33,054 nucleotides of DNA from Verrucomicrobiota bacterium. GTDB lineage: Bacteria; Verrucomicrobiota; Verrucomicrobiia; Chthoniobacterales; UBA10450. Of this stretch, positions 2,821 through 33,054 are shown piece after piece. The notes beneath the pieces were generated by a model, which ran no database searches, was not told the origin of the DNA, and saw only the letters and a program-made list of their open reading frames with translations. A program made the translations under genes and the position numbers. Each line of letters begins with the position of its first letter. The first letter of the stretch is position 1. The stretch lies in NCBI GenBank assembly GCA_003221295.1, contig QHRA01000179.1:1-33054 (forward strand), in the 5' to 3' direction.

Positions 2821-2868
2821 GTTGTCGTTCCTTGTCTATTTCTTGTTAGGAAATTTGTTTGATGTTTC

Positions 2869-2907
2869 TGGAGAGGCGAGCTCCTGCGAGCCCGGCGTCG
2901 TAGTTCC
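2869..2907 (+). repeat. Degenerate copy of the dispersed element also seen at 21255-21303
   Basis: tggagaggcgagctcctgcgagcccggcgtcgtagttcc closely matches the reverse complement of 21255-21303 (tggaggggcgagctctgcgagcgcggcgtcgcagagctcc...). Confidence 0.6.
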
Positions 2908-2908
2908 T

Positions 2909-6145: not shown

Positions 6146-8439
6146 CCTTCCTCCCCCACGATTTGCACTTCAGTTTGTAATTCGACACCGCGCTTTTCTC
6201 GGGCCGTCGCTTGAATTTTCGCGATCAACTCGAGCATTTCCGCCGCGGTCGCGCCGCCGTCGTTAACAATAAAATTCCCATGCACCTCCGAGACCCGCGC
6301 TTTTCCGATGGCGCAATTTTTCAAGCCAAGCTCATCCACTAATTTTCCGGCGGGAATGCTGTCCGTATTTTTGAAAATGCATCCTGCGCTCGATGCCGCC
6401 GGCTGGGTCGTTTTACGTTTGTGCTGCGATTCCTCGAGTTTGTGCACGATCTCGTCCTTCCTGCTCGGCACACCACGAAATACCGCTGAGATCGCATAAT
6501 TTTTCTCCAGCGTCGGCACATGCCGGTAATGCACCTCCATCTCCGATGGTGTCATCGTATGTGCATTCCCTTCGGCGTCGAGAAGACGCACGCTCACGAC
6601 ATGCTCGAAAGTCTGTCCGCCCATTGCGCCGGCATTCATGCGCAATGCACCGCCGACTTCACCAGGAATCCCTTCCATCCATTCGAGACCACCGGTGCCG
6701 GCGTCGCGCCCGGCATAGGCAACTTGCTTTAATTTCGCGCCAACACCGGCCGTGATTTCATTTCCATTCACTGTGATATCGTCGAACTCGCCCCCACACG
6801 GATGAACAACCACGCCCGTGATTCCGCCATCGCGGACCAGAAGGTTTGATCCGCGTCCGATGACAAAGAGCGGAAGATTTTCTTGTCGACAAAAACGAAT
6901 CAGCTCGGCAAAGGCTTTCTCCGTGCGCGGCTCAATCCAAAACTGAGCCGGCCCGCCGACGCGCAAAGTAGTGTGTTTCGCCATCGGCTCATGCAAACGC
7001 ACTTCGCCTTCTTCGCCCACGATCGCCTTTAATTTTTCGGCAACCACCAGTTCCGCCGCCAGAATGGACAATTGCTCGTGAATATTTCCCGCGCCTAGGC
7101 TGAGGACGACATCGCCCGACGCCAGCATGTTGCCGACATCGTGATGGACGCGGGCGAAGCGCGATTGATAAGTCACGCCGCGATGACCGTGCGCGGAAAT
7201 GGCATCGGCAATGGTCTGCCCGCTGATCCCGGGAATGGGAGGCTCGCTCGCCGGATATATATCGGTAATGACAACGCGATCGGCCTGATCGAAGGCAGCG
7301 CCAAATTCCTTTCGCAAGGCCTTGGTCCGAGTGTAGCGATGCGGCTGAAACATTGTCAGCACGCGATTGCGCCCAGTCGATCGCGCCGCGGCCAGGGTCG
7401 CCCGAATTTCTGTCGGATGATGCGCATAATCATCGACCAACAGGAAACGATCGCTGGCATATTTGATTTCGAAACGCCGGCGCGCGTGTCGAAATTTGGC
7501 CAGCGCCATGGCGATTTTCTCGAACGGGATACCGAGTTCGCTCGCCAGCGCGACGACCCCAATGGCATTCTGCACATTGTGCTGGCCCGGAACATTCAGC
7601 CTCGCTTCGCCCAGTTTTTCTCCGCACCGAAAAACAGAAAAGACCGAGGCGAAATCCTCCAGCGTAACATCCTGCGCGCGATAATCGACGTTTTCGCCGA
7701 ATCCGTAGGAAACCGAACGGTCGGACTTGCAAACACGCGTTGCGATGGCGTCGTCGGCGCAGAAAAAAACCTTGCCAGATGTTTGACCGATCAACTGATC
7801 AAAGACCGCTTCGATTTTCGCCAGGTCTTCGTAAAAATCGAGATGCTCCGGCTCGATATTTAAGACCAGGATATGTTCGGGATAAAAACAGCGAATGGTG
7901 CCATCGCTTTCGTCTCCTTCAGCCACAAAAAATTCACCTCGCGGGTCCCAATGCGCGTTTTGTCCGAGGATCGGGATTTCGGCACCGACGTAATGCGACG
8001 GATGCAACCCCCCTTCGCGCAGGACATGTGCCGTCATGGCCGAGGTAGTGGTTTTACCGTGCATGCCGCAGATGATGATGCCGCGTTTTCCCTGCATGAT
8101 GGCGGCGAGCGCTTCCGCGCGCCGAGCCGTTCGCGTTTCCGATTGGCGCGCGCTAACGAGAATTGGATTGTCGGCCCTGATCGCCGAGGAGTACACGATC
8201 AACTCGGCTTCGGCTGCGTCTTCCGCCCGATGTTGTTGGAAAAATTGCAGACCCAGTCGCTGCAAACGTTCCACTTCCACCGAAATCGATTTGTCCGATC
8301 CGCTCACCTGATGTCCGAGCTCGAGCAGAAGCGCGGCGATGCCGCTCATCCCGCTGCCGGCCACGCCGATCAGATGAATGCGATGATGCTCACGTGTGAG
8401 AAATCGCGCCAGACTGAGTTGCACCCTCATCGTCGTCAT
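6142..8439 (-). CDS. murC/murB: Bifunctional MurC-MurB fusion: UDP-MurNAc--L-Ala ligase plus UDP-MurNAc dehydrogenase
   Basis: N-terminal MurC ('HLIGVAGSGMSGIAALLLELGHQVSGSDK', 'GMHGKTTTSAMTAHVL'). C-terminal MurB ('HTTLRVGGPAQFWIEP', 'VIGRGSNLLVRDGG', 'GIPGEVGGALRMNAGAMG', 'SAGCIFKNTDS'). Confidence 0.94.
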   Translation of the reverse strand: MTTMRVQLSLARFLTREHHRIHLIGVAGSGMSGIAALLLELGHQVSGSDKSISVEVERLQRLGLQFFQQHRAEDAAEAELIVYSSAIRADNPILVSARQSETRTARRAEALAAIMQGKRGIIICGMHGKTTTSAMTAHVLREGGLHPSHYVGAEIPILGQNAHWDPRGEFFVAEGDESDGTIRCFYPEHILVLNIEPEHLDFYEDLAKIEAVFDQLIGQTSGKVFFCADDAIATRVCKSDRSVSYGFGENVDYRAQDVTLEDFASVFSVFRCGEKLGEARLNVPGQHNVQNAIGVVALASELGIPFEKIAMALAKFRHARRRFEIKYASDRFLLVDDYAHHPTEIRATLAAARSTGRNRVLTMFQPHRYTRTKALRKEFGAAFDQADRVVITDIYPASEPPIPGISGQTIADAISAHGHRGVTYQSRFARVHHDVGNMLASGDVVLSLGAGNIHEQLSILAAELVVAEKLKAIVGEEGEVRLHEPMAKHTTLRVGGPAQFWIEPRTEKAFAELIRFCRQENLPLFVIGRGSNLLVRDGGITGVVVHPCGGEFDDITVNGNEITAGVGAKLKQVAYAGRDAGTGGLEWMEGIPGEVGGALRMNAGAMGGQTFEHVVSVRLLDAEGNAHTMTPSEMEVHYRHVPTLEKNYAISAVFRGVPSRKDEIVHKLEESQHKRKTTQPAASSAGCIFKNTDSIPAGKLVDELGLKNCAIGKARVSEVHGNFIVNDGGATAAEMLELIAKIQATAREKRGVELQTEVQIVGEEG

Positions 8440-9527
8440 ACTGCGGCAGTTGTATATTTCTCCATCGTTTCCACCACCGCGCTGGCGGCGTTTCTGGTCG
8501 AAAGTTTGGCCGCGTTCTGCGACATGCGCTGCAGACGCCCGTGATCTTCAATGAAGGGAAGGATTTTTCGCGCGAGCGCATCGTCTAAAATTTCCGATTC
8601 CTTCACCAGGATGGCTGCATCTGCCTTGACGAACACTTCGGCGTTACGCGCCTGGTGATCATCGGCGGCGTAGGGAAAAGGAATGAGGATGGCAGGCAAG
8701 GCGAATGCCGCCAGTTCCGCCAGACTGGCAGCGCCAGATCGAGCGACAGCGAAATCAGCCGCGCTGTAAAGTTCCTCCATGCGATGATGAAAAGCCGCCA
8801 CAAAAGCCGGCAGTTTGGCGCGCCGATAATTATCAGCCACCAGTTTTTCCTCGCGCGTTCCGGTCAGATGAATCACTTGCAGCCGCCCTCCATCGAGTGA
8901 CGGCAGCGACTTGATCATCGCCTGGTTGATCCCACTCGCACCCTGACTCCCGCCCATCACCAGCAAGGTCGTGAGGTCCGCGCTTAATCCAAGTTTTTCC
9001 CGCGCGGCCTTGCGATCGAGGCGCTGCAATTCTGTCCGAATCGGCGTGCCGGTCACTTCTGTTTTCACTTTGGGAAAAAAGGGCGCGCATTCTTTGAAGC
9101 CGAGCAGAACCGCTCGCACTAATCGCGCGGTCATCTTGTTGGCTTTGCCGGGGATGGCGTTGGATTCGTGGATGAATGTTGGGACGCCGCGCATTTTTCC
9201 GGCGAGGACCGGCGCCGTGGAAGTGAACCCGCCCATCCCGAGAATAACCTGCGGTTTGAACCGTCGGTAAATGGAACGGCAACGCCGGAAACTTTCGTTG
9301 AATCGACGAACAAATCCGAGGATGTCCGGTGAAAAAGGCGAGGGCAGCCCAATGGTAGGCAATTTTTCGAACGGAATTTCCGGATGTTCCTTCAACGCCA
9401 GCGCATCGACATCCTTTTCCGAAACAAAAAGCAGCACCTGGTGTCCGCGCGCGCGCAACACTTCAGCCACGGCAAGTCCCGGGAAGAGGTGTCCGCCGGT
9501 TCCTCCGCATGCGATGATGGCGTTCAT
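8436..9527 (-). CDS. murG: UDP-GlcNAc--MurNAc-(pentapeptide) pyrophosphoryl-undecaprenol GlcNAc transferase MurG
   Basis: 'IIACGGTGGHLFPGLAVAEVLRARGHQV', 'HESNAIPGKANK', 'LLVMGGSQGASGIN', 'ARSGAASLAELAAFALPAILIPFPYAADDHQ'. Confidence 0.95.
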   Translation of the reverse strand: MNAIIACGGTGGHLFPGLAVAEVLRARGHQVLLFVSEKDVDALALKEHPEIPFEKLPTIGLPSPFSPDILGFVRRFNESFRRCRSIYRRFKPQVILGMGGFTSTAPVLAGKMRGVPTFIHESNAIPGKANKMTARLVRAVLLGFKECAPFFPKVKTEVTGTPIRTELQRLDRKAAREKLGLSADLTTLLVMGGSQGASGINQAMIKSLPSLDGGRLQVIHLTGTREEKLVADNYRRAKLPAFVAAFHHRMEELYSAADFAVARSGAASLAELAAFALPAILIPFPYAADDHQARNAEVFVKADAAILVKESEILDDALARKILPFIEDHGRLQRMSQNAAKLSTRNAASAVVETMEKYTTAAV

Positions 9528-9542
9528 AGGATGGTTGATGGA

Positions 9543-9593
9543 CGGAGAGACGCGTTTCTGCGCGTGCAGGACGTGCAGAAGCACGTCTCTCCG
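9543..9593. repeat. Palindromic repeat in the murG-ftsW spacer
   Basis: cggagagacgcgtttctgc (9543-9561) and gcagaagcacgtctctccg (9575-9593) form a near-perfect 19-bp stem. Confidence 0.72.
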
Positions 9594-9642
9594 CATTCTG
9601 CTGCGGACAATTTGAGATCTAAGATTTGAACCCTGGAGTTCT

Positions 9643-10785
9643 TCATATCCTTGGCGTCATACGCGCCTGCATGGTAATGCGTTTCTGATTTCCCGGGTCC
9701 AGCTTGGCTTGCCGGTAAATGTTCACCAAAATGCCGACGCCAAAAAGACAGGCGGCGAGATTCGATCCGCCGTAACTGATAAACGGCAGCGGCAATCCCT
9801 TGTTCGGCAATAGCGAAGTCGTCACCCCGATGTTCACTGCCGCCTGCAAGGCCAGGAGCGAAACAATTCCACAACTCAGCAGCATGCCGAAGCGATCTTT
9901 GGCATGCAGCGCGATCATCATCCCGCAAACGATGATGACGATAAACAAAAAAACGACGAGCAAGCTGACGCGCAATCCCAGTTCTTCGCCGATCATTGGA
10001 AAAATGAAATCGGTGTGCGCGTAGGGTAGATAGAGCATTTTTTGGCGGCCGTTGCCGAGACCAAGCCCTTCCATACCGCCGCTGCCCCACGCGATCAGCG
10101 CCTGCATTTGCTGCAAACCGGCATCCTGTTTGTAATTCTCCGGATGTAAGAACGCGAGGAGGCGGCTCATTCGCTCCGGCATGCAGGTGGCGGTGAAGAT
10201 AAATCCACCGAGCGCGCTGGCGGAAAACGCGCCGAGCAGGATGGCGTTTGTTCCGGCGACAAACATCATCACCAAAGTTGTCGCGCCGATGAGTGCGGAA
10301 GTGCCGAGATCGACCTCGGTAATGATGAGCGAGACCAGTAGTGCAATGCCGATGAGTGGAACTAAGAAACCGAAAATTACGTTGCGGGTCCTGTTTTCAA
10401 AACGCGAAAACCACCAGGCCAGAAAAAATATTGCAGCAACCTTGGCAATTTCCGATGGCTGAAATGTGACCGGACCGGCGCCGACCCAGCGGCGCGAGCC
10501 GTTGATCCGCAATCCGAAGTGCGGCACGAAACAGAGAGCCAGGGTTCCGAGCGCGAGCAGGAACCAGAGCCACCAGGTGTGGTACCAGAAATGGTAATCA
10601 ACCAGCGCGGCCGCAATCAAAATTGTAAGGCCAATCCCAAGCCAGAGTGACTGTCGTTTGATGAAAAAATAAACGTCACCGTGGGCATCGCGGGCGAATG
10701 CACTGGTGCTGAAAAGCATGACGATCCCAATGACCAGCATCCCAAGCACAGCTATAAAAAGAAAATGTGCGCTCTTGCGTTGCAT
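9643..10785 (-). CDS. ftsW: Lipid II polymerase/SEDS protein FtsW
   Basis: Polytopic SEDS protein: 'FQPSEIAKVAAIFFLAWW', 'FIFPMIGEELGL', 'NIGVTTSLLPNKGLPLPFISYGGSNL'. Confidence 0.95.
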   Translation of the reverse strand: MQRKSAHFLFIAVLGMLVIGIVMLFSTSAFARDAHGDVYFFIKRQSLWLGIGLTILIAAALVDYHFWYHTWWLWFLLALGTLALCFVPHFGLRINGSRRWVGAGPVTFQPSEIAKVAAIFFLAWWFSRFENRTRNVIFGFLVPLIGIALLVSLIITEVDLGTSALIGATTLVMMFVAGTNAILLGAFSASALGGFIFTATCMPERMSRLLAFLHPENYKQDAGLQQMQALIAWGSGGMEGLGLGNGRQKMLYLPYAHTDFIFPMIGEELGLRVSLLVVFLFIVIIVCGMMIALHAKDRFGMLLSCGIVSLLALQAAVNIGVTTSLLPNKGLPLPFISYGGSNLAACLFGVGILVNIYRQAKLDPGNQKRITMQARMTPRI

Positions 10786-10823
10786 TTATACAGGGTCACG
10801 CAGATCGCGATCAAAATTGGATT

Positions 10824-10970
10824 GGGTAGCGCACGCAACGCCAGTTCGGCTCGGACCTCGCGTGTTGGTTGCGACGTCTCGTCGCAACATGCTTTCGTGA
10901 TGCCTTGGTTGGAGAAAAGTCCGTAATCGCGAGGACGCGATCACCAACACGCGAGACGCGTGCGCTACCC
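10824..10970. repeat. Composite palindromic (MITE-like) element between ftsW and the LysM gene
   Basis: Outer inverted repeat gggtagcgcacgc / gcgtgcgctaccc, second inverted pair ctcgcgtgttggt (10857-10869) / accaacacgcgag (10943-10955), and inner hairpins gttgcgacgtctcgtcgcaac and atcgcgaggacgcgat. Confidence 0.8.
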
Positions 10971-10994
10971 GGAATTCTGTCGCCGGACGCAATC

Positions 10995-11510
10995 TCATTC
11001 GTTCCCTTTCTTTGCCTTCGCGGCTTTACTTGGAATGATCAGCTTCTGTCCGACCTTTAATTTGCGCGGATCATCGATATGATTCGTCGCCAGCAGATCG
11101 TCGTACGAGACCTTGAATTTCTTTGCGATGTTCACCGGGTTGTCGCCTTTCGCGACGGTGTAAACTTTTGCGCCTTCCGGAATTGGATCGTTCGGCTTCG
11201 ATTTCTTCGCTGTTTTCGCCGGCGACGGTTGCGTTCCTTTCCCTTCCTCATAGTTAGTCGATGCCGTGGCGATGTGGCTCGAGTTGATGACCGCTACTCC
11301 ACCCTGCCGGCTTTTGATCGCGTTGAAGGCAATTATTCCCGCCACCGCGACGACGTGCAGCAAAAGCACAATCAAAAGCGCTCGCGAAAGTTTCATGTTC
11401 GGTTCCGAAAGATCGTCGAAGTCGGCACCGGAAGCGGTCGCGCGCCGCGTCGTCGCCGCCCGCAATTTCTTTTTGCGCGTAAAGATCTTCGGAAACTTTA
11501 TCGCTTTCAT
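10995..11510 (-). CDS. Membrane-anchored LysM-domain protein within the dcw cluster
   Basis: Basic N-terminus, TM 'ALLIVLLLHVVAVAGIIAF', then LysM 'VYTVAKGDNPVNIAKKFKVSYDDLLATNHIDDPRKLKVGQKLIIP'. Confidence 0.88.
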   Translation of the reverse strand: MKAIKFPKIFTRKKKLRAATTRRATASGADFDDLSEPNMKLSRALLIVLLLHVVAVAGIIAFNAIKSRQGGVAVINSSHIATASTNYEEGKGTQPSPAKTAKKSKPNDPIPEGAKVYTVAKGDNPVNIAKKFKVSYDDLLATNHIDDPRKLKVGQKLIIPSKAAKAKKGNE

Positions 11511-12838
11511 TTGGGCAAGGCATGGACGAGACGCCGGAATTGGTCGCCCCGGTCAGCGTAGCTCTTGAACATGTCGAACGAGGAAGTGCCGGGAGAAAAG
11601 AGGACCACGTCGCCAGTTTTCGCGGCCGCACGCGCGCGTTCGACCGCATCCGCGAGCGAGCGCGCGATTTCACATCGCGTTGCTTCGCGCCAATCATCGG
11701 CGATGCGGTTCGCCATCTCACCAAGAAGAATCGCGGTATGCGCTTTCTTCTTCACCAAATCGCGCAGCGGTTGGAAATCGAAACCCTTGTCTTTTCCGCC
11801 CGCGATCAAAACCACCGGCTTGGTTTGCGCCTGCAGCGCTTTTTCCGCCGCATCCAGATTCGTGGCTTTGGAATCGTTAATGTAATCGACCCCGCCGATC
11901 GTCCGGACAAATTCGCAGCGGTGGGGCGCCGGTTCATACGCACACAAGGGCGGCGCCATTTGCTCGAAGGCCAATCCGCGGATGTGTCCGACCGCGAGCG
12001 TCGCCATCAAGTTTTCGATGTTGTGGGAACCGCGCAATTTGGCATCGGCCAATCGCAACACCGGAGTCCTCTCGAAACAAATCGTCCCGTCCGCCAAACG
12101 AAAATCCGCGCGATCGTCGTAGGCGCTGAAGGTCAGACGATGCGCTTTGATCTGCGGCAGGTAGTCGCTCGCATTGACGACAGCGAACTCCTTCTCCGTC
12201 TGATATTCAAAAATGCGCAGCTTGGCCGCGTGATACTCCGCGACCGAGGCATAACGATCGAGATGATCGGGCGCGAAGTTCAACCACACCGCAATCTGCG
12301 GGCGAAAAGTCTTGATCGTTTCGAGTTGGAACGAGCTGACTTCGGCCGTCAGAACATCGAACTTCGATTGATGACGCACAACTTCGCTCAGCGGTTTGCC
12401 AATGTTGCCGCAGGCAACGGTGCGTTGACCGCACGCATTCAACATCTGCGCGACCAGCTCCGTTGTCGTGGTCTTGCCATTGGTGCCGGTGATGGCGATG
12501 AGCGGCAGTTCGCAAAATTGCCAGCCCAGCTCGAGCTCGCCGATCATTTCAATCTTTCGCGACGAAAAATTCTGCGCGAGTGGGGAATCGGGATCGATTC
12601 CAGGGCTCAGGACCGCCAGGTCGCAAGGATCGCGATTTGTTTCCGCGGCCGGACCGCTGATTACACGCACGCCATGGTCGCGCAGATTTTTGATCGTCGA
12701 TTCCGGCAACTTATTTTCCGTTGCGCTGTCGAGCACGCTGACGTTGGCATCATGCGAGCGCAGCAATAAAGCGGCCGCAGTCCCGCTTAATCCCGCGCCG
12801 AGGACAGCGATATTTTTATTTTGATAACGGGGGTTCAT
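11507..12838 (-). CDS. murD: UDP-N-acetylmuramoylalanine--D-glutamate ligase
   Basis: 'NIAVLGAGLSGTAAALLL', 'ITGTNGKTTTTELVAQML', 'INDSKATNLDAAEKAL', 'LIAGGKDKGFDF', 'FSPGTSSFDMFKSYADRGDQF'. The start at 12838 gives an ATGA overlap with mraY. Confidence 0.95.
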   Translation of the reverse strand: MNPRYQNKNIAVLGAGLSGTAAALLLRSHDANVSVLDSATENKLPESTIKNLRDHGVRVISGPAAETNRDPCDLAVLSPGIDPDSPLAQNFSSRKIEMIGELELGWQFCELPLIAITGTNGKTTTTELVAQMLNACGQRTVACGNIGKPLSEVVRHQSKFDVLTAEVSSFQLETIKTFRPQIAVWLNFAPDHLDRYASVAEYHAAKLRIFEYQTEKEFAVVNASDYLPQIKAHRLTFSAYDDRADFRLADGTICFERTPVLRLADAKLRGSHNIENLMATLAVGHIRGLAFEQMAPPLCAYEPAPHRCEFVRTIGGVDYINDSKATNLDAAEKALQAQTKPVVLIAGGKDKGFDFQPLRDLVKKKAHTAILLGEMANRIADDWREATRCEIARSLADAVERARAAAKTGDVVLFSPGTSSFDMFKSYADRGDQFRRLVHALPK

Positions 12839-13935
12839 CGCAACTTCAGCGTCGCTAATCCGAGGAGTGCAAAAACGGCAGACAAAATCCAAAACCGAAC
12901 GATGACGGTGTTCTCCTTCCAGCCGACCAGTTCGAAATGATGATGAAGTGGGGACATCGCGAAAATGCGGCGCCCGGTCAGTTGAAAACTCAGGACCTGC
13001 ATAATGACTGAGATCGCTTCGACGACGAAAACACCACCGACGACGGCGAGGAGAAATTCCTGCTTACAACAAATGGCGACGACGCCGATCATCCCGCCGA
13101 TGGCGAGTGAGCCGGTATCCCCCATGAAAACCTTGGCCGGGTGACAATTGAACCAGAGGAAACCAAGTCCGGCACCGACGAGCGCGGCACAAACCACCGT
13201 CAGCTCACCGGTGAAAGGATAAAACGGGACCTGCAAATATTCCGCGATCTTGAAATTGCCGGCGGCATAAGAAAGAAAAGCGTAGGCGAGCGCGACCGTG
13301 ACGGTGCAACCGATGGCAAGACCATCGAGGCCATCGGTCAAATTGACGGCGTTGGAGGAACCGACGATCACCACCGCAAAAAAGATGAGTGTGAACCACC
13401 CCATGTTGGTGACCACGGGAGCTTTGAAGAACGGCAGATAAAGCGAACGCGCCTGGACTTGCAGTAATGGGCTGGTGAGAAAAACGACGGTGACGACAGC
13501 GGCGAGCACCAATTGCGCAGCCAATTTCACCCGACCCGGAACGCCGTCGGATTTTTTCTTGGTGACCTTGAGATAGTCGTCGAGAAATCCGAGGACGCCG
13601 AGATAAAGCATGCTGAAAAGGACGAGCCAGACGAAGCGATTATCCGGGCGCGCCCAGAGTACGCTGGCGAGGAAGACCGCGCCGATGACCAGAACGCCAC
13701 CCATGGTGGGCGTGCCTTGTTTTCCTCCGTGAAGTTCGGCCAGGCGTCGCACTTCTTCGACGCTGCGGATGGGCTGGCCGATCTTGAGCGAGATCAATTT
13801 TCGGATGATGAAATTCCCGAAAACCAACGACAGGGCGAACGCGGTCACGGCTGATGCGACCGCGCGAAAAGTAACATAAAAAAAAACGTTGAGGCCGCCG
13901 ACCTGATCGCTCAAGCGATGAAGATAGAACATCAT
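12835..13935 (-). CDS. mraY: Phospho-N-acetylmuramoyl-pentapeptide transferase
   Basis: 'GTPTMGGVLVIGAV', 'GFLDDYLKVTKKKSDG', 'NAVNLTDGLDGLA', 'FMGDTGSLAIGG', 'MSPLHHHFELVGWKE'. Confidence 0.97.
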   Translation of the reverse strand: MMFYLHRLSDQVGGLNVFFYVTFRAVASAVTAFALSLVFGNFIIRKLISLKIGQPIRSVEEVRRLAELHGGKQGTPTMGGVLVIGAVFLASVLWARPDNRFVWLVLFSMLYLGVLGFLDDYLKVTKKKSDGVPGRVKLAAQLVLAAVVTVVFLTSPLLQVQARSLYLPFFKAPVVTNMGWFTLIFFAVVIVGSSNAVNLTDGLDGLAIGCTVTVALAYAFLSYAAGNFKIAEYLQVPFYPFTGELTVVCAALVGAGLGFLWFNCHPAKVFMGDTGSLAIGGMIGVVAICCKQEFLLAVVGGVFVVEAISVIMQVLSFQLTGRRIFAMSPLHHHFELVGWKENTVIVRFWILSAVFALLGLATLKLR

Positions 13936-15320
13936 CGGGCATCCCCTCCCACTGGCTGAAGTTTGGCGAATTCATCCAGCACCAATTCCGTGCGCGAAGA
14001 TCGACTGCCCTTAATAAGAACCAGATCGCCTGGCCCGACGATCGCACCCAACATCTCAGCCGCCTCGCTCGCGTCTTTCGCGACGGCGAAATTTTCCAGC
14101 CCCGCTTTTTCGGCCGCAACCGCAATGGTATCGTCGGCAATCGAGATCAAGTGATCGATTCCGAGCGTGGCCGCGGTTTCGCCAACTTCGCGATGACCGC
14201 GCTCCGATTCCGCACCAAGCTCGAGCATTCGCCCGAGAACGGCGACGCGCTTGCCGTCGGCATCGAGTTCCATCAAGGTGCGCAAGGCTGCTTTCATCGA
14301 ATCGGGATTGGCGTTGTAGCTGTCGTCGATGAACTGGACGCCGTTGATCTCGCGAATTTGCAAGCGCGCTTTGCTCAGCGGCGCCGCCACCAGACCGGCC
14401 GCACATTCTTCCAACGAAACACCGAAAGCCCGTCCCGCGGCGACGGCCAACATCGCGTTTTGCACCATGTGCAATCCCGGAACCGGCAGTTGTGCGCGGC
14501 AACGATGTGCCCCTTCCACGATCGTGAACTCGCAGCCGCCCGAAGTCTGTTGCACTTCAATGGCGCGAATCGTTCCCTTCTCAATCCCCGCGAAAATCAC
14601 GCGCGCGCGTGTCCGGTCTGCGATCGAGGTGCTGAACTCATCATCGGCATTCAAAATAACGAAGCCACCGGGATCGATCGCTTCCGCCAGGGCACCTTTT
14701 TCCTGCGCAGTCGCTTCTCGGGATCCCATAAACTCGATGTGCGCGATCCCGATGTTGGTAATGATGGCGGCGTCGGCCGAGGCGATGCGCGCGAGCGCGG
14801 CGATCTCGCCTGGATGATTCATCCCGAGTTCCCAAACCGCGAACTCGTCGTCGCGATTTGCTTCCAGCACGGTCCGCGGTAGACCAACGTGATTGTTAAA
14901 GTTCCCTTCGGTTTTTGTGACCCGAAACGCGCGTCCCAGAATCGAGGCCGCGAAGTCCTTGGTGGAGGTCTTGCCGTTGCTGCCGGTGATGCCGAGCACT
15001 TTTAACGGAAGAGTTTTTCGATAATTGGCGGCGAGATTTTGATAGGCAACCAGCGTGTCGGCTGCGCGTAAGATCGCGAAATTCTCCGGCAGATCCGACG
15101 GCGGATTCTGTGAAACAATCGCGCCGGCTGCGTCTGCCTTGGCAACATGTTCCAGGAAATTATGGGCGTCGAAATTTTCGCCATGCAAGGCTACGAAAAG
15201 TTCTCCCGGTTTGATCGTGCGCGAATCGGTACTGACGCGCTCGATCATGGTCTCTGCTTTTCCGCGCAGTATTTTGGCGCCTGCGAACTCTGCAACTTGG
15301 CGCAGTGAAAGAGCATCCAT
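13932..15320 (-). CDS. murF: UDP-MurNAc-tripeptide--D-Ala-D-Ala ligase
   Basis: 'ITGSNGKTSTKDFAASIL', 'WELGMNHPGEIAALARIASADAAIITNIGIAHIE', 'IDDSYNANPDSMKAAL'. Confidence 0.95.
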   Translation of the reverse strand: MDALSLRQVAEFAGAKILRGKAETMIERVSTDSRTIKPGELFVALHGENFDAHNFLEHVAKADAAGAIVSQNPPSDLPENFAILRAADTLVAYQNLAANYRKTLPLKVLGITGSNGKTSTKDFAASILGRAFRVTKTEGNFNNHVGLPRTVLEANRDDEFAVWELGMNHPGEIAALARIASADAAIITNIGIAHIEFMGSREATAQEKGALAEAIDPGGFVILNADDEFSTSIADRTRARVIFAGIEKGTIRAIEVQQTSGGCEFTIVEGAHRCRAQLPVPGLHMVQNAMLAVAAGRAFGVSLEECAAGLVAAPLSKARLQIREINGVQFIDDSYNANPDSMKAALRTLMELDADGKRVAVLGRMLELGAESERGHREVGETAATLGIDHLISIADDTIAVAAEKAGLENFAVAKDASEAAEMLGAIVGPGDLVLIKGSRSSRTELVLDEFAKLQPVGGDAR

Positions 15321-15346
15321 GGTATTAGCGACCGAAAAAAGAACTC

Positions 15347-15478
15347 TGGGGCGCGCAGGCTGCCAGCCTGCCCCGTTCGGCAGCCCGCCGAACGGAAGAC
15401 AAGCTCAACCCCACGTTTTCGCATCGCATGTTTGCGGCAAGCTGCCGCAAACGGCAGGCAGGCAGCCTGCGGTCCCCG
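15347..15478. repeat. Composite palindromic element in the murF-murE spacer
   Basis: Outer inverted arms rich in gcaggctgcc (15351-15373 versus 15452-15478), plus inner hairpins gttcggcagcccgccgaac (15375-15393) and gtttgcggcaagctgccgcaaac (15430-15452). Confidence 0.75.
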
Positions 15479-15500
15479 GAATGTTGTGCGTTGCTCATAT

Positions 15501-16979
15501 TCAAAATTGCACCGGCAGATCGTCGAGTGCCCGGCGCGCCACCTGAATGTCGTCAAAGGGAATGGTATGATCGGCAAACTCCTGATATTTTTCGTGACCT
15601 TTGCCGGCGATTAACACGAGATCGCGCGGCTGAGCCATCGCCACCGCATGTCGAATGGCTTCCGCGCGCTCCACAATTTTTTCGTAATGGGTGGAGCGAA
15701 ATCCCTTCTCCACTTCGTTAATAATTGCGTCCGGATTTTCTTTGCGCGGATTATCCGAAGTGATGATGGCGTGATCGGCCAGCTCATCCGTCACGCGTCC
15801 CATCAGTGGTCGCTTTTTACGATCGCGATCGCCGCCGCAACCGAAAACGACGATTAGCTTGCGTGGTTTCAGTTCGCGCAACGTTTTCAAGACATTGCGC
15901 AACGCGTCGTCGGTATGCGCGTAATCGACAAAGATTTGAAATTGGCGCTTTGCCGGAACGAGCTCGAGGCGTCCCGGCACCTGTGGTGAGCGGGCGAGCG
16001 AGAGAATGGCTGCGCGCAGATTTACGCCCATGACAGTGGCGGCTGCCAGCGCCGCCATCGAGTTCGCAACATTGAATCGACCGATCAACGGAACCCGCAC
16101 CAGATAACTTCTTCCACGCGCGTCGAGCTGATAGGAGGTGCCGGCAAATTCCGTCCGATAATTCGAAGCCCGAAAATCGGCGTGCAAACCGAGGCCGTAA
16201 GTCACGACCGGAATTTTGCCGGCCAGACGATCGACCAATTTTTCGCCGTAGCGATCGTCGATGTTAATGACCGCGCTGGCCCCCTTTTTTTTCGATTGCA
16301 AAGGGAGGTTCTGGAAAAGTTTCGCCTTGGCCTCGAAATAATTTTCCATGGTGCGGTGAAAATCGAGGTGGTCCTGGGTGAGATTGGTGAAGACGGCGAC
16401 GTCCCATTCGATTCCACGGGTTCTGTCCTGCGCTAGCGCATGCGAAGAGACCTCCATCGCGGCCGCGCGGCCACCGGCGTTGACGATTTGCGCGAGCAAT
16501 TCCTGAATGTCGAGCGCCTCCGGCGTGGTTCGGATCGCAGGCAAAATGCGATCGCCGATTTCGTATTGCACCGTGCCGAGCAATCCACACCGCATTCCGG
16601 CCTTTTCGCAAATGTGTTTGATGAGAAATGTCGTCGTCGTTTTCCCGTTCGTGCCGGTGACCGCGGCCATTTTTAATTTGCGCGCCGGCACCCCATAAAA
16701 CGCGGACGAGAGATCGGCCAGTGCCGACCGACTATCTTCGACGACGAGACAGGTCGCGCGCGGCGACGAAATTTCGCGTTCGGCTACGATCACACTCGCT
16801 CCCTGTTCGATCGCTTGATCGACGAATTGATGGCCATCGCTTTTCTCACCGCGGATGGCAACGAAAAGAGTGTTGCCCTGCACTCGCCGCGAGTCATACG
16901 CGATGCTTTCCACTTCGCGATCAAGTGACCCGATGACCCGACGTGGCGCGATGGCACGGGTGAGAACTTTGAGCTGCAT
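15501..16979 (-). CDS. murE: UDP-MurNAc-L-Ala-D-Glu--diaminopimelate-type ligase
   Basis: 'VTGTNGKTTTTFLIKHICEKAG', 'TTPEALDIQELLAQIVNAGGRAAAMEVSSHALAQDR', 'DYAHTDDALRNVLKTL', 'TSDNPRKENPDAIINEV' (DNPR motif associated with meso-Dap use). Confidence 0.95.
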   Translation of the reverse strand: MQLKVLTRAIAPRRVIGSLDREVESIAYDSRRVQGNTLFVAIRGEKSDGHQFVDQAIEQGASVIVAEREISSPRATCLVVEDSRSALADLSSAFYGVPARKLKMAAVTGTNGKTTTTFLIKHICEKAGMRCGLLGTVQYEIGDRILPAIRTTPEALDIQELLAQIVNAGGRAAAMEVSSHALAQDRTRGIEWDVAVFTNLTQDHLDFHRTMENYFEAKAKLFQNLPLQSKKKGASAVINIDDRYGEKLVDRLAGKIPVVTYGLGLHADFRASNYRTEFAGTSYQLDARGRSYLVRVPLIGRFNVANSMAALAAATVMGVNLRAAILSLARSPQVPGRLELVPAKRQFQIFVDYAHTDDALRNVLKTLRELKPRKLIVVFGCGGDRDRKKRPLMGRVTDELADHAIITSDNPRKENPDAIINEVEKGFRSTHYEKIVERAEAIRHAVAMAQPRDLVLIAGKGHEKYQEFADHTIPFDDIQVARRALDDLPVQF

Positions 16980-16998
16980 GTAAAATTAAAATGATTGC

Positions 16999-18768
16999 TC
17001 AATGCCCCGGCGCGCTGGTTGAAGCGACTCGGCCCGCCGCGGTCCGCTTAATCAAATCGGGTTGCGGGGCAAGATCGAGATAGCGCGCGGCCTTTTCGGC
17101 AATACGGGCAAAAATCGGACCGGCCACGAGTCCGCCGTAATTCAACTCCGGTTTGGATGTCTTGGCGTCATCCAGTACTACCAGCCCAACAAATTCGGGG
17201 TGGTCAGCCGGCAAAAATCCCGTGAACGAAACGATATACTTTCCTTTTTCGTAACCGCCGTGGGGATCTACTTTTTGCGCCGTCCCGGTTTTTCCCGCAA
17301 TGATGAAGCCGGGGACCGCCGCCGCGGCGGCGGTCCCGCGGTCGCTCACCACCCCACGCAGCGCACGACCAATTTGTTTCGCCGTTTCCTCGGAGATCAC
17401 CTGCCGAACAACCGAAGGCGAAAATTCGCTGATTGTTTTGCCGTCGGCCGTCGTAATTGATTTGACCACCCGCGGCGTAATTAGTTTTCCGCCGTTGGCA
17501 ATCGTCGCCATCGCGACCGTCATCTGCAACGGTGTCACAGCCACCTCATGTCCCATCGGTATCCGCGTAATTGAAATCTTACTCCAATTTTGCGGAGGTC
17601 GAATCATTCCGTTGATTTCGCCGGGCAACTCCACCCCGGTGCGTTCACCAAATCCGAACCGCCGGATGTATTCGTAAAACTTCTGGTCGCCGAGACTGAT
17701 CGCTAGTTTGGCCGCGCCGATGTTGCTCGATTTCACCAGAATGTCCTGCACGCTTAGTTCCCCGTAAGGGCGATGATCGTGCAGGGTGCGCCCGCCATAA
17801 TTCCAAATCCCCTTTTCACAATAGATCGTCGTGTCTGGCCGCACCTTTTTTTCGTTCAAGGCCGCCGCCGCCGTCACTATCTTGAACGTCGAACCCGGCT
17901 CCATCATGTCGATGACGGCGCGATTCTTCATTTGCTCGGGCCTGGCGGTGCTGCGCTGATTGAGATCAAAGTTCGGCCGGTTCGCCATCGCCAGAACTTC
18001 CCCGGTTTGCGGTCGCATCAGAATGATGGTGGCCCTCTCCGGCGAATACTCGCGCACGGCCGCGTCGATTTCGTTTTCGACAATATTCTGCAAATTCAAA
18101 TCAACGCTGAGATGGACCTGATAACCGTCGCGTGAGGCTCGCTCCTGGCCGCGGTAAAGCACGATTTCCTGGCCAGCGCGGTTGTGCTCGATATAGCGAT
18201 AGCCATCCTGCCCGCGCAAATATTCATCCATCGACGCTTCCACGCCCTGAATTCCCTTGTGATCAAAATCGGTAAATCCGATGACGTGACAAAGCATCGA
18301 GCCGTTGGGATAAAGGCGAGCGGCATCATGTTCGAAATAAATGCCGCGCAGATTTTGCTCACGAAGTTTGGCACGAAGCGCGTCGGCTGCTGATTCCGGT
18401 ACATCCCGTTTCAGGACGATGTAATGCCGGTCGCTTCCGAGTTTTCCCCGCAGCTCGTCCGCATCGATCTTCAGGTCGCGACTCAGCAGCGCGACGGCTT
18501 CGGCCACCTTCTCCTTGTTTAAATGTGACGTGTCCGCGACGACGATTTCCACCGGCACGTTGTGGGCGAGGACTTCGCCGTTGGCATCGGTGATCGCGCC
18601 GCGTTCGGCGTAAATCGGTTGTTTGTAGACATGTTTCTCCGCCGCTAGTCCGGCGTACTCGTCGTGCTTGACCAGCTGGAGATAAACGAGGCGAAACGAG
18701 AACGCGCTAAAAAGCAGAACAAAACCAATGCAAACCAGTGCGCACCGTGTCCGTCCATTCCATCTCAT
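16999..18768 (-). CDS. ftsI: Division-specific transpeptidase FtsI/PBP3 class
   Basis: N-terminal TM, PBP dimer domain, 'MEPGSTFKIVTAAAAL', 'KSSNIGAAKLA', 'GKTGTAQK'. Confidence 0.93.
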   Translation of the reverse strand: MRWNGRTRCALVCIGFVLLFSAFSFRLVYLQLVKHDEYAGLAAEKHVYKQPIYAERGAITDANGEVLAHNVPVEIVVADTSHLNKEKVAEAVALLSRDLKIDADELRGKLGSDRHYIVLKRDVPESAADALRAKLREQNLRGIYFEHDAARLYPNGSMLCHVIGFTDFDHKGIQGVEASMDEYLRGQDGYRYIEHNRAGQEIVLYRGQERASRDGYQVHLSVDLNLQNIVENEIDAAVREYSPERATIILMRPQTGEVLAMANRPNFDLNQRSTARPEQMKNRAVIDMMEPGSTFKIVTAAAALNEKKVRPDTTIYCEKGIWNYGGRTLHDHRPYGELSVQDILVKSSNIGAAKLAISLGDQKFYEYIRRFGFGERTGVELPGEINGMIRPPQNWSKISITRIPMGHEVAVTPLQMTVAMATIANGGKLITPRVVKSITTADGKTISEFSPSVVRQVISEETAKQIGRALRGVVSDRGTAAAAAVPGFIIAGKTGTAQKVDPHGGYEKGKYIVSFTGFLPADHPEFVGLVVLDDAKTSKPELNYGGLVAGPIFARIAEKAARYLDLAPQPDLIKRTAAGRVASTSAPGH

Positions 18769-28228: not shown

Positions 28229-28708
28229 TCAGGCCGCCGGCGGCGCATCGGCGAAGATGGGCGCGGCAGTGATATCGGAAGCATTGAAGCTGAAACCGTG
28301 ACCATCTTTTTGCAGCGATTTTAACAAAAGTGCGACCTGCTGCGCCGTGCCGGTAGAATAGAAACGAACCAGCCCAACCGTCGTCCGCGGACCAAAAACG
28401 GTGATCATGATCGTTTCGTCATCGACTGAGTTCATGAAAATGTGGCTGCCGTTGCCCTGGTGATAAAGGGCATTGAACTCCACTTCCCCAATCCGGCGTG
28501 CCAGTTCACGTGTCGCAGCAAAGGATCCGGCAGCGAGCGCAGCGATGATGGTCACGTCCATCACCGTCATGTCGCCGTATTGCGAAATGACATTGCCACC
28601 ACGGTCGATCACGACCGTTAACTCGGCCTCCGCCTTTTTTAAGAAGTCGGCGAGCACGCCATCGAGCGTTGCCACGTCGTCGATGGTAAGGACGGGAATG
28701 GCGTTCAT
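28229..28708 (-). CDS. Roadblock/LC7 domain protein (MglB-like)
   Basis: 'VLTIDDVATLDGVLADFLKKAEAELTVVIDRGGNVISQYGD...DVTIIAALAAGSFAATRELARRIGE', typical roadblock architecture, next to the MglA-like GTPase. Confidence 0.8.
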   Translation of the reverse strand: MNAIPVLTIDDVATLDGVLADFLKKAEAELTVVIDRGGNVISQYGDMTVMDVTIIAALAAGSFAATRELARRIGEVEFNALYHQGNGSHIFMNSVDDETIMITVFGPRTTVGLVRFYSTGTAQQVALLLKSLQKDGHGFSFNASDITAAPIFADAPPAA

Positions 28709-29379
28709 GCGACGCTTCGCTGCGGCTGGGGCGCGACATGTGTTTGCCCCGGCTTGGCGACGCCCGGCCCAGCAGAACGGCCGGCGTCACTTTGCTTGCT
28801 AAACTTGTGCAGCAGAATCTGCGAAACAGCGTTCAGGGTGGCGAAAACATTTTGCCCGGTGCTGGAAATGACCTCGAAACTTTGCATTCGTTTCTTCCGG
28901 TTGTTCAGGACGTAATCCAGATAATTAACAGGGGCGATATTTGGCAGATCGCGTTTGTTGTACTGCAAGACGTAGGGGACATCGTCGAGTGACATGTTTT
29001 GCTTCGCCAGGTTGTCCTCGAGATTTTTGAAACTCTCGACGTTCTCCTCCATTTTTTCCCACTGCGAATCGGCCACAAAAACGATGCCGTCGACGCTGCG
29101 CAGGACGAGCTGGCGGGTGGCGTTGTAAATTACCTGACCGGGGACGGTATAGAGCTGGAATTTGGTGACAAAGCCTTTAATAACCAGAGCGTTGAGCGGG
29201 AGAAAGTCGAAGAACAAGGTGCGATCGGATGCGGTAGCGAGTGAAACAAGGTCGCCGCGGTTTTGCGGATTAATCCGCTGATGAATGTAGCCGAGGTTGG
29301 TGGTTTTGCCGCAGAGGGCCGGCCCGTAATAAACGATCTTAAACTGAATCTCGCGGCTGGCGTAATTAATGATCGACAT
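28705..29379 (-). CDS. MglA-like small Ras-family GTPase
   Basis: 'FKIVYYGPALCGKTTNLGYIH' P-loop, 'SDRTLFFDFLPL', 'YTVPGQVIYNATRQLVLRSVDGIVFVADSQ', 'QYNKRDLP'. Start at 29379 inferred from homology. Confidence 0.9.
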   Translation of the reverse strand: MSIINYASREIQFKIVYYGPALCGKTTNLGYIHQRINPQNRGDLVSLATASDRTLFFDFLPLNALVIKGFVTKFQLYTVPGQVIYNATRQLVLRSVDGIVFVADSQWEKMEENVESFKNLEDNLAKQNMSLDDVPYVLQYNKRDLPNIAPVNYLDYVLNNRKKRMQSFEVISSTGQNVFATLNAVSQILLHKFSKQSDAGRSAGPGVAKPGQTHVAPQPQRSVA

Positions 29380-31486
29380 GAGGAGTCTCCACTTGCGGAT
29401 AGGTTCGCGAAAGTTCCTGTGTGATGCGGCTGAGCTCGCGCCGGCTCTCCGCACTCAATTCGCTGCCGTTGTGCACCGCGGTCAGGCAAAGATCGCCGGC
29501 ACTAAAGAATGTCACGGGCGACTTTTCACCATGGACCGTCATGCAGCTAAGGGAACCGAGTTGGGTCTCAGACATATGTTTTTGCAGTTTCTTCAGCATC
29601 GTCGGTGCCACCGCGCTCAAACCTTCCATATGCATTTCGTCCGGGATGTTTCCGGCGATGATTAAGCCATCTGCGAAAATCACGCTGCAGGAGGCAACCC
29701 CGGGAAGGGCACAGGCTTGAGCGATCGCCGCCTTGGCATCAAATTTCGGAGGTGCCTCGACTGGCTTGGCCACCGAAGTCTCCCCACTTGCTGTCGGAAT
29801 GGAAACCTGAAGGTCTGCCGCTTCGACAGGCTCAAGGCCCCGAGCCTGCGGAGGGGAAATTGTTACTTTCAGAGCTTCAGCTTTCGCTACTTCCGAGGGT
29901 TCTAGTTTGGGGATTTCAGCCTTCGGCACTTCCGGCTCTGCCGGTGCAGCGGCTGGAAGGGCGGTTCCCCGGCGTCGGGCAAAACGTTCCGCGTCCTCCT
30001 TTGCCTTCGCCAAAAATGGCGTCTCGAACATTTCATCCTGAGAGGCAACTTCCTGATCCCCTCGCACACGAAGAGAATCTCCGGGCAAGTTCGCCAGCAC
30101 ATCGGGAAGTGAAAGCGGCACCGGTGCTTCCACTGCATCAGGCAGAAACAAACCGCGATATTGCTCCGGTAGCGCGGCGTGAAAATCTTTCGGCGAAATC
30201 ACGACTTTTCCGCTTGCCAGCTGCGGCGTAATCAATGTCATCCGAAATGAAATCTTCGAGTCTGCCGGAATCGAAGCGACGTCGCCAGCAACCTGCATCG
30301 GCGGAAGACTCGCCAGGATTGGACGCAACGAGAGCGTGACCATTGGCTCCTGAGTTGGTTCAAGCGGTCCGGCGGCAATCGGGGCAACCGTCGGCGCCTC
30401 CCGCACCGGCGGTGGGGGCGCCGGCGTTTGCTCAGCGATTTTCGGCGGTGCAGCCTGCGGCGGCATTTGGAATGGAATTCGCGTCGGCGCAGCGGCCGCT
30501 GGTGCGGCGGGAGGAACGGGAGGCCCGCTGGAGGCTGGAACTCGCGGAAACGCGGACCCACCCGTTCCAATCAGCAAAGATTTTTCCGGCTTGTCTTCCG
30601 CCGGTGCGCCCGGTGTAACAATGCGCGACGTCGAACCGTCCTGGCTCGGTATCGTTCCGACACGCGGCGGTGGAATGGTGCGACTGGTCGCCGGTGCGAC
30701 AGGCGGCTTCACCGCTGGCGGCGGTTGAATTGGCGCAGTGGCCGGAGCCGACTGGGTGGCAGCCGGTGCGCTGGCCGAAGGTTCGATGGGTAGCGTCAGT
30801 TCTGTGGTCGTAAACGGCGCCACCGTCGTTCCGAATTTCTCAGATTCTTCCACCATCAATTTCAAGAAGGGCGTCTCAACCTGCGCCACGATCGGCTCTG
30901 CCGTCTGGTCGTCGCGAACTCGAAGGTGCAAAAGTTCATCGATTATTTTTTGCGCCGGCAATACCACCCCCGTCGTATCGGACGGCTGCACCGTGTGTAG
31001 GAAAATTTCCGGTGCCTGCTGATAGATCGCTGCAATCGAAATGCTGGGACGGCCTGCTGCCATACCCTTCTCCACCTCGGCCGCCTTCAACGTTACCCGG
31101 CGGGTAGTATCAAAACTTTCCTGTGGTTTGAGATAACCATCCGGCATTTGGGCGATTATATCGCTCAGGGCGAGAGAGAGTGTCCTTTCCCCGCGCGGTT
31201 CTACTGACACACCCGCGCTCGGTCCCAAATCACCGGGCGTTCCAACGGGCGGACGCGTCACCGGGATCCGTCGAGCGGCGATGACACTAGCCGCCGCCAG
31301 CGCCGGCGCGGTTGGATCCGGCGTCATCGTGCGCACCGCATAAGGCATCACCCGCTTCGCCAGTTTGTCGCCCTCAGGCTTGTCCTTCACCGAGGGCAAT
31401 GGCGCGGGCCCGGTCGGGCGGCGTTTCCCTTCAAATTTCTCTTTCGCCCGCTTAACGAGATCTAGGAACGGGATGGTCATGGCCAT
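29366..31486 (-). CDS. 706-aa Pro/Ala-rich multidomain protein: internal duplication plus C-terminal roadblock/LC7 domain
   Basis: C-terminus 'ACALPGVASCSVIFADGLIIAGNIPDEMHMEGLSAVAPTMLKKLQKHMSETQLG...VTFFSAGDLCLTAVH' is roadblock-like. Two ~120-aa copies (aa 101-219 and 382-503) are recognisable by eye. Confidence 0.8.
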   Translation of the reverse strand: MAMTIPFLDLVKRAKEKFEGKRRPTGPAPLPSVKDKPEGDKLAKRVMPYAVRTMTPDPTAPALAAASVIAARRIPVTRPPVGTPGDLGPSAGVSVEPRGERTLSLALSDIIAQMPDGYLKPQESFDTTRRVTLKAAEVEKGMAAGRPSISIAAIYQQAPEIFLHTVQPSDTTGVVLPAQKIIDELLHLRVRDDQTAEPIVAQVETPFLKLMVEESEKFGTTVAPFTTTELTLPIEPSASAPAATQSAPATAPIQPPPAVKPPVAPATSRTIPPPRVGTIPSQDGSTSRIVTPGAPAEDKPEKSLLIGTGGSAFPRVPASSGPPVPPAAPAAAAPTRIPFQMPPQAAPPKIAEQTPAPPPPVREAPTVAPIAAGPLEPTQEPMVTLSLRPILASLPPMQVAGDVASIPADSKISFRMTLITPQLASGKVVISPKDFHAALPEQYRGLFLPDAVEAPVPLSLPDVLANLPGDSLRVRGDQEVASQDEMFETPFLAKAKEDAERFARRRGTALPAAAPAEPEVPKAEIPKLEPSEVAKAEALKVTISPPQARGLEPVEAADLQVSIPTASGETSVAKPVEAPPKFDAKAAIAQACALPGVASCSVIFADGLIIAGNIPDEMHMEGLSAVAPTMLKKLQKHMSETQLGSLSCMTVHGEKSPVTFFSAGDLCLTAVHNGSELSAESRRELSRITQELSRTYPQVETPHVDH
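29820..29854. repeat. Palindromic element inserted in frame within the 706-aa CDS
   Basis: gcttcgacaggctcaaggccccgagcctgcggagg; encodes PPQARGLEPVEA on the minus strand; related copy at 28127-28162. Confidence 0.65.
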
Positions 31487-33054
31487 CTACAAATTATCGT
31501 CCGCCGCGACTCGCAATACTTCTTCCAGCGTGGTCTGGCCTTCGAGCGCCTTGTCGATGCCAGTCATACGCAAGGTTTTCATTCCTTCGGTGACAGCTTG
31601 GTTCTTAATCACCGCCGCCGATGCACGCTTCATAATGAGGCGGCGGATGGATTCGGTCACCGTCAGCGCTTCAATGATGGCCAGCCGTCCGAGATAACCG
31701 CGACCTTTGCAACGATCGCAACCGCTCCCGCGGTAAAAGACATTTTCAGTCTTCGGTTCAACTCCGAGCCTCGTGAAAATTTCCGGCTCGGGCGTAAATT
31801 CCTCACGGCAATTTGTGCAAATCTTGCGCACAAGACGTTGCGCGCACGTCATCAACATCGAGCTCGAAATCAGGAACGGCTCGATCCCCATGTCGTCCAG
31901 ACGCGTAATCGCGCCGGCAGCGTCGTTGGTATGCAAAGTCGAAAGCACCTGGTGACCGGTCAGCGCCGCTTTCACCGCGATGTCGGCGGTCTCGTTGTCG
32001 CGAATTTCACCCACCATCACGATGTCGGGGTCCTGCCGCAGGATCGAGCGCAGGGCCGAGGCAAAATCCAGCCCGATGTCGTTACGTACCGACACCTGGT
32101 TAACCCCGTTGAGCTCGTACTCGATCGGGTCCTCCACCGTCACGATGTTGTATTGCGGGTTGTTCAGCTCCTGGAGCACGGAGTAGAGCGTGGTTGTTTT
32201 ACCAGAACCGGTCGGGCCGGTAACCAGAATCATCCCGTGTGGCGCATCGATCGCTTTCCTGAATTTCAGCAGCGTCTCTTCATCTATTCCCATTGTGTCG
32301 ATCGAGCCGGTCAACGCCGTCTTGTCCAAAATACGAATAACAATTTTCTCCCCGTGCGAAGTTGGCAGAACCGAAACGCGAAGATCGACTTCTTTGCCCA
32401 TCACTTTGACGCGAAAACGCCCATCCTGCGGCACGCGCCGTTCGGCGATGTTAAGGCCAGCCAAAATTTTGATGCGTGAGGTGATCGCCAGTTGCAGCGC
32501 TTTCGGCGGCGATTCCGCCGGGGCCAAATCCCCATCCACGCGATACCGCAGCTTCAAGGACTTCTGGAACGGCTCTATATGAATGTCGGATGCGTTTTCC
32601 CGAATCGCCTGCACCATGATCAGGTTCACGATCCTGATCACCGGCGCGTCTTCGCTGTCGGTCGCGAGCCGATCGATATCGATCTCTTCGCTCGTTTTCG
32701 CCTGAACTTCGACGCCGCCCTCGGGCTTCTCCGCTTCCTTGACCACGTCCCGCAACGCCTGGTTTATTCCCGCCCCGCCATGCACCCCACTGAGGGCCTC
32801 GGCCACGCCCTTTTCCGTGGCGATCATCGGCACTACGTCTAATTGGACGCGGCGCTTTACGTCATCGACCGCCAACACATTGGTCGGGTCCACCATCGCG
32901 ACAAACAGCTTCCCGTTTAAGCGCGCTACCGGCACCAGCTTGTTTGCCTTCGCCATCTCGCGCGGGATCAGCCCCATGATTTCCTCGGGAATCCGGATCC
33001 GCGCCAAATTGACCGGCGACACGTTCAGGCAACGACCCATGCTGAAGGCCATGT
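31487..33054 (-). CDS. PilB/GspE-type secretion/pilus assembly ATPase (5' end probably outside window)
   Basis: Walker A 'ILVTGPTGSGKTTTLYSVLQELN', 'TVEDPIEYELNGVNQVSV', 'RSILRQDPDIVMVGEIRDNETADIAVKAALTGHQVLSTLHTNDA', tetracysteine 'CTNC...CDRC'. The N-terminus starts abruptly at the window edge. Confidence 0.93.
   Translation of the reverse strand, partial: MAFSMGRCLNVSPVNLARIRIPEEIMGLIPREMAKANKLVPVARLNGKLFVAMVDPTNVLAVDDVKRRVQLDVVPMIATEKGVAEALSGVHGGAGINQALRDVVKEAEKPEGGVEVQAKTSEEIDIDRLATDSEDAPVIRIVNLIMVQAIRENASDIHIEPFQKSLKLRYRVDGDLAPAESPPKALQLAITSRIKILAGLNIAERRVPQDGRFRVKVMGKEVDLRVSVLPTSHGEKIVIRILDKTALTGSIDTMGIDEETLLKFRKAIDAPHGMILVTGPTGSGKTTTLYSVLQELNNPQYNIVTVEDPIEYELNGVNQVSVRNDIGLDFASALRSILRQDPDIVMVGEIRDNETADIAVKAALTGHQVLSTLHTNDAAGAITRLDDMGIEPFLISSSMLMTCAQRLVRKICTNCREEFTPEPEIFTRLGVEPKTENVFYRGSGCDRCKGRGYLGRLAIIEALTVTESIRRLIMKRASAAVIKNQAVTEGMKTLRMTGIDKALEGQTTLEEVLRVAADDNL

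Follow-up and report, generated by a model that had tools for sequence, protein, structure and literature searches.

A conserved Verrucomicrobiota operon that may connect an MglA/MglB switch to pilus extension through a roadblock protein with a duplicated module

The stretch of DNA analysed here (the window; 33,054 nucleotides) is the entire contig C71 of a 2.98-Mb, 291-contig metagenome-assembled genome (MAG) of the order Chthoniobacterales (Verrucomicrobiota), the nearest named relatives of which are Chthoniobacterales/Spartobacteria soil MAGs of the same phylum. At its right end lie four minus-strand genes that encode, in order of transcription, a PilB-clade extension ATPase, a long protein ending in a roadblock domain (hereafter the long roadblock protein), the Ras-like GTPase MglA, and the roadblock protein MglB (Table 1). 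An earlier note on this sequence had described four packed genes, and all four are indeed present, abutting or overlapping. The pilB stop abuts the long roadblock start with a 0-bp junction (31487/31486); the stop of the long roadblock gene (29366) falls, as that note had observed, inside the GTPase start, within the first codons of mglA, giving a 14-bp overlap (ATGTCGATCATTAA) with the mglA ATG at 29379; and mglA and mglB overlap by 4 bp (ATGA), an arrangement also present in 33 related loci. Translational coupling of the overlapping genes is plausible. Packing by chance is ruled out by its conservation across dozens of genomes. Elsewhere in the window, the minus strand carries an ordinary division and cell-wall cluster at 1339-18768 (ftsZ, ftsA, a murC/murB fusion, murG, other mur ligases, and a penicillin-binding protein).

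Table 1 Genes and domains of the operon in the window.
Feature	Position	Strand	Basis
pilB-clade extension ATPase (MshEN + T2SSE), N-terminus cut by contig end	31487..33052	-	Pfam, PDB match, orthologues, tree
Long roadblock protein, 706 aa: N-terminal helix, two modules, Pro-rich linkers, roadblock	29366..31486	-	
Module 1 (residues 93-224), four strand-helix units, ending RDDQ-x10-TPF	30815..31210	-	Profile match, AF2, homology to module 2
Module 2 (residues 371-506), ending RGDQ-x10-TPF	29969..30376	-	Profile match, AF2, no PDB fold
C-terminal roadblock/LC7 domain of long protein (residues 581-700)	29387..29746	-	Foldseek; Pfam marginal; homologues
mglA, Ras-like GTPase, 224 aa	28705..29379	-	M. 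xanthus MglA match; invariant catalytic residues
mglB, roadblock protein, 159 aa	28229..28708	-	MglB match, Robl_LC7

The identities of MglA and MglB are well supported by sequence. The GTPase, which the earlier note had started at a GTG of a longer open reading frame, begins instead at the ATG that is preceded by GGAG; its MglA-like nature is borne out by a match to M. xanthus MglA over residues 1-195 (E 4.5e-68), and the P-loop Lys25, the intrinsic arginine finger Arg53, Thr78, and the catalytic Gln82 are invariant in 61 aligned relatives. It thus belongs to the MglA family by its similarity to a characterised MglA together with conserved key residues. Likewise, the protein previously proposed as a second roadblock protein matches MglB (6h5b; E 1e-16) and Robl_LC7 (E 1e-10), and we assign it to MglB on its similarity to the solved structure and on the overlap that joins its gene to mglA; it scores below the cut-off of the NCBIfam Thermus-type MglB model (57 vs 200 bits). 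A single MglA and two roadblock proteins were found in the genome, and this operon encodes all three. Second, divergent MglA copies occur among its relatives, immediately downstream of TPR-MshEN-pilB in G041 (L183:11637-12191) and adjoining a second module-bearing protein in G050 (L190:6011-8764).

The long roadblock protein had been described as a roadblock domain fused to a single 600-residue module with no nameable domain. This region resolves into two homologous domain copies of ~130 residues plus disordered linkers. Aligned by hhalign, modules 1 and 2 match each other at 99.3% and E 4e-20, while 20 column-shuffled control alignments all gave E > 0.06. Each module consists of four serial strand-helix units of the type vxLPLxxILxxLP, and both are closed by R-x-D-Q-x10-TPF with the same spacing (residues 191/205 and 475/489). 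AlphaFold2 predicts both modules and the roadblock at a pLDDT of about 90 with disordered linkers, and module 2 reaches 90.8 when predicted alone. The homologues are built alike, with a short helix at the N-terminus, two modules, linkers rich in Pro, and the roadblock at the C-terminus. In the window protein and these homologues, the modules match no Pfam or NCBIfam family; they have no sequence relative in the PDB (best E 0.39), no fold match there (best E 2.8), and no fold match in a viral structure library. Modules 1 and 2 thus fall outside any domain family described in Pfam, NCBIfam, or solved sequences and folds.

The C-terminus of the 706-residue protein is marginal by Pfam Robl_LC7, with 19.5 bits in one search (cut-off 23) and 23.9 bits in a second; however, its predicted fold resembles roadblock structures (Foldseek E 4e-7), and 9 of 35 homologues match Robl_LC7 (best 5e-9). 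Together with the MglB match of the 159-residue protein, this agrees with the proposal in the earlier note that both proteins carry roadblock/LC7 domains. Profile comparison detects a faint similarity between the roadblock of the long protein and MglB (E 0.06), and because this is weak we do not call the domain an MglB paralogue. The family also varies in length and composition. Long roadblock proteins of 992-1264 residues (L049:9645-12623, L085:3171-6965, and L105:3408-6926) have longer Pro/Ala-rich linkers and still conserve the modules and the roadblock. The G204 protein (L164:573-1961) has an apparent helix-hairpin-helix-like stretch between module and roadblock, and two sequences in the family alignment have Pfam HHH_3 matches. 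Proteins of 149-162 residues with one module and without a roadblock are encoded at L179:7311-7760, L180:7191-7679, and L181:7149-7616, in genomes in which no MglA was detected; their N-terminal SLDSLVxxFWxIEEALG also resembles part of the G204 protein.

Rightward extension of the locus, which the earlier note had proposed, was achieved through relatives, and in related loci with enough flank a gene encoding TPR repeats and an isolated MshEN domain (TPR-MshEN) lies directly before pilB. The full operon as reconstructed from relatives is therefore TPR-MshEN / pilB / long roadblock / mglA / mglB. MglA was found in 41 of 58 relatives searched, and the order pilB-long roadblock-mglA-mglB recurs in the long loci L040-L046, L048-L050, L055, and L058, with the pilB of L045 broken into two frames, while L047 and L059 end before pilB. 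A MAG assigned to Chthoniobacter flavus (L110) also carries the operon. Among 80 named loci, the long roadblock gene is present in 52 of the 57 with enough flank, pilB in 28 and TPR-MshEN in 29 of 44 with enough flank, and mglB in 68 of 78. As the proposal in the earlier note requires, the linkage persists throughout Chthoniobacterales and, in rearranged form, in the wider phylum. Beyond the order, the usual neighbour of the long roadblock gene is mglA, often in divergent orientation, and in G041 and G050 TPR-MshEN and pilB remain together on a contig other than that of long roadblock-mglA-mglB. Because the five parts recur as a shuffled set, they are a stronger sign of shared function than one fixed operon would be. 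Of 241 sampled Verrucomicrobiota genomes, 25 carry the module and 24 MglA, with 21 having both, 4 the module alone, and 3 MglA alone (Fisher p 3e-23, ignoring relatedness of genomes); a wider draw placed the module in 39/368 genomes and 35/189 genera. The nearest outgroup loci (KSB1; L138, L139) have mglB-mglA with no module gene nearby. Beside the G168 long roadblock gene lies a gene for a DUF4388 (PATAN) protein (L167:4908-6035), which recalls MglA/MglB-PATAN neighbourhoods already published (PMC4316618).

The link to PilB is not universal, as some lineages have MglA and the long roadblock protein without this PilB. Families f5 and f17 pair the long roadblock gene with mglA but lack this PilB type and, for the most part, an adjacent mglB, and Pfam, which is insensitive to this roadblock group, found no other roadblock in them; thus, the most constant association in the phylum is that of the long roadblock protein with MglA. 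In f5 and f17, the long roadblock protein may itself regulate MglA. Extended to the whole family, this pattern would fit a protein that acts mainly on the nucleotide state of MglA, as a GTPase-activating protein, an exchange factor, or both, with modules that localise or oligomerise it and no bridge to a motor. We consider this unlikely because a genuine MglB is present in most loci, the insensitivity of Pfam makes the apparent absence of another roadblock weak evidence, and the likeness of the roadblock to MglB is faint.

The ATPase, for which the earlier note had proposed a PilB-like identity, belongs to the PilB clade by its domains and by phylogeny, but the start then given to it, for a product of 521 residues, is an internal Met located 2 bases from the contig end. 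Orthologues of 572-574 residues start about 53 codons earlier, so that about 53 residues are missing in the window. The protein combines a T2SSE ATPase domain (E 2e-140) with an N-terminal MshEN domain (9e-16), as expected of a type IVa PilB, and its best PDB match is M. xanthus PilB (3jc8). Full-length orthologues score highest with the PilB family (626-631 bits), with GspE second and within a few bits; because they do not reach the cut-off of the TIGR02538 PilB equivalog (676 bits), we describe the ATPase as PilB-clade and not as a certified PilB. In the tree, it groups with the PilBs of G172, G204, and G216 (support 100/99), and the other GspE/PilB-like copies of the genome branch apart. 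In these three genomes pilB is adjacent to pilC, which is not the case in the order of the window itself. In G204, a single operon holds mglA-mglB-pilB-pilC, with an NtrC-type regulator after it, and TPR-MshEN comes after the long roadblock gene; in G172 and G216, TPR-MshEN and pilB-pilC are transcribed divergently, and in G216 the next gene encodes a PilS-like kinase. The link to pili is strengthened by these neighbours of the PilB clade (pilC and PilS- or NtrC-like genes) and by the G204 operon. The 13 genomes of the order that lack MglA have only PilB paralogues that score at most 460 bits, compared with about 800 bits for the orthologues in G041 and G050. A co-occurrence test with PilT was uninformative, as PilT is nearly universal in the phylum, and pili as such therefore do not explain the distribution.

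The close GspE score, together with the secretin and GspE-like genes elsewhere in the genome, raises the question of whether the ATPase might power a type II secretion system, or some other pseudopilus, instead of a motility pilus, in which case the switch would control secretion. With PilB as both the best-scoring family of the full-length orthologues and the top PDB match, orthologues placed with pilC and, in G216, near a PilS-like kinase, and PilT/PilU encoded in the genome, we regard this as very improbable.

MshEN domains are known as c-di-GMP receptors through a tandem 24-residue motif, RLGxx... (PMC5013675). An operon functioning as a c-di-GMP sensor, with the switch gated by nucleotide binding to MshEN in PilB and in the TPR protein, is hardly credible, since both proteins match the MshEN profile but lack the motif even in relaxed form. 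Many PilBs keep motif I alone with its Gly replaced by Ala, and with the motif so degenerate we dropped c-di-GMP sensing by MshEN as a claim.

Altogether, we favour a model whereby the operon wires the MglA/MglB switch to type IV pilus extension, probably with the long roadblock protein as the scaffold. In this model, MglA-GTP would be the on-state and MglB its GTPase-activating partner, as homology and the conserved catalytic residues suggest, and PilB would power pilus assembly. The C-terminal roadblock of the long protein would engage MglA and/or MglB, while its two strand-helix modules, carried on flexible arms, would bind the motor side, i.e. PilB and/or the upstream TPR-MshEN protein; the latter may serve as an adaptor, perhaps much as SgmX, also a TPR protein, does in Myxococcus. 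Pilus extension would thereby be licensed locally and in a GTP-dependent manner. We read the operon as switch, scaffold, adaptor, and motor because of the analogy with MglA-SgmX-PilB and MglC of M. xanthus. Starting from the genes, domains, duplication, co-occurrence, and linkage observed here, we infer every protein contact in this model, the direction of control, and polarity itself; control of polarity through localisation and oscillation, in particular, is suggested by analogy with Myxococcus. More tentatively, we speculate that the duplicated module is an undescribed domain family, closely associated with MglA in the phylum, and that it evolved into a dedicated physical adaptor between GTPase and pilus motor, such that polarity would be implemented via one scaffold and not via a multi-protein relay.

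The novelty lies in the arrangement and in the module; the parts of the operon are themselves of kinds already known. A search of the open-access literature found no description of either the operon or the module, and no earlier study of MglA-type control in Verrucomicrobiota. The survey of Wuichet and Sogaard-Andersen (2014) noted MglA in Verrucomicrobia as well as loci of one MglA with two MglBs, and described the neighbourhoods of MglA groups 1, 4, and 5 as widely variable (PMC4316618); the portion available to us mentions neither a PilB operon nor a fusion of module and roadblock. With the module comes a widespread domain family of no known fold. The operon bears on a question unresolved in Myxococcus, namely how the PilB motor is controlled by MglA, and a conserved operon uniting GTPase, regulator, TPR protein, roadblock scaffold, and PilB offers a short list of testable contacts. 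Our findings suggest a compact connection from switch to motor in soil Verrucomicrobiota.

The closest parallel is the M. xanthus network of MglA, MglB, MglC, RomR, and SgmX. There, MglA-GTP and SgmX bring PilB to the pilus machine, and SgmX is required for polar PilB, although a direct SgmX-PilB contact was never detected (PMC11580455). The second roadblock protein of M. xanthus, MglC, docks MglB to RomR (PMC7949163, PMC12719032). Both systems have homologues of MglA and MglB, a second roadblock, a TPR protein, and PilB; in contrast to M. xanthus, a single operon encodes them all here, the second roadblock shares its polypeptide with two undescribed modules, and the short TPR protein includes an MshEN domain. 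The long roadblock protein resembles MglC in its setting, as a second roadblock protein beside an MglA/MglB pair, but MglC is small, stand-alone, and has lost MglA binding (PMC7949163), whereas modules and disordered linkers are part of the long protein. Finally, the actinobacterial conservons (CvnA-D) are likewise conserved operons that combine a Ras-like GTPase and a roadblock protein with a protein whose function is unknown; they differ in encoding a histidine kinase and in lacking a pilus ATPase (PMC4316618).
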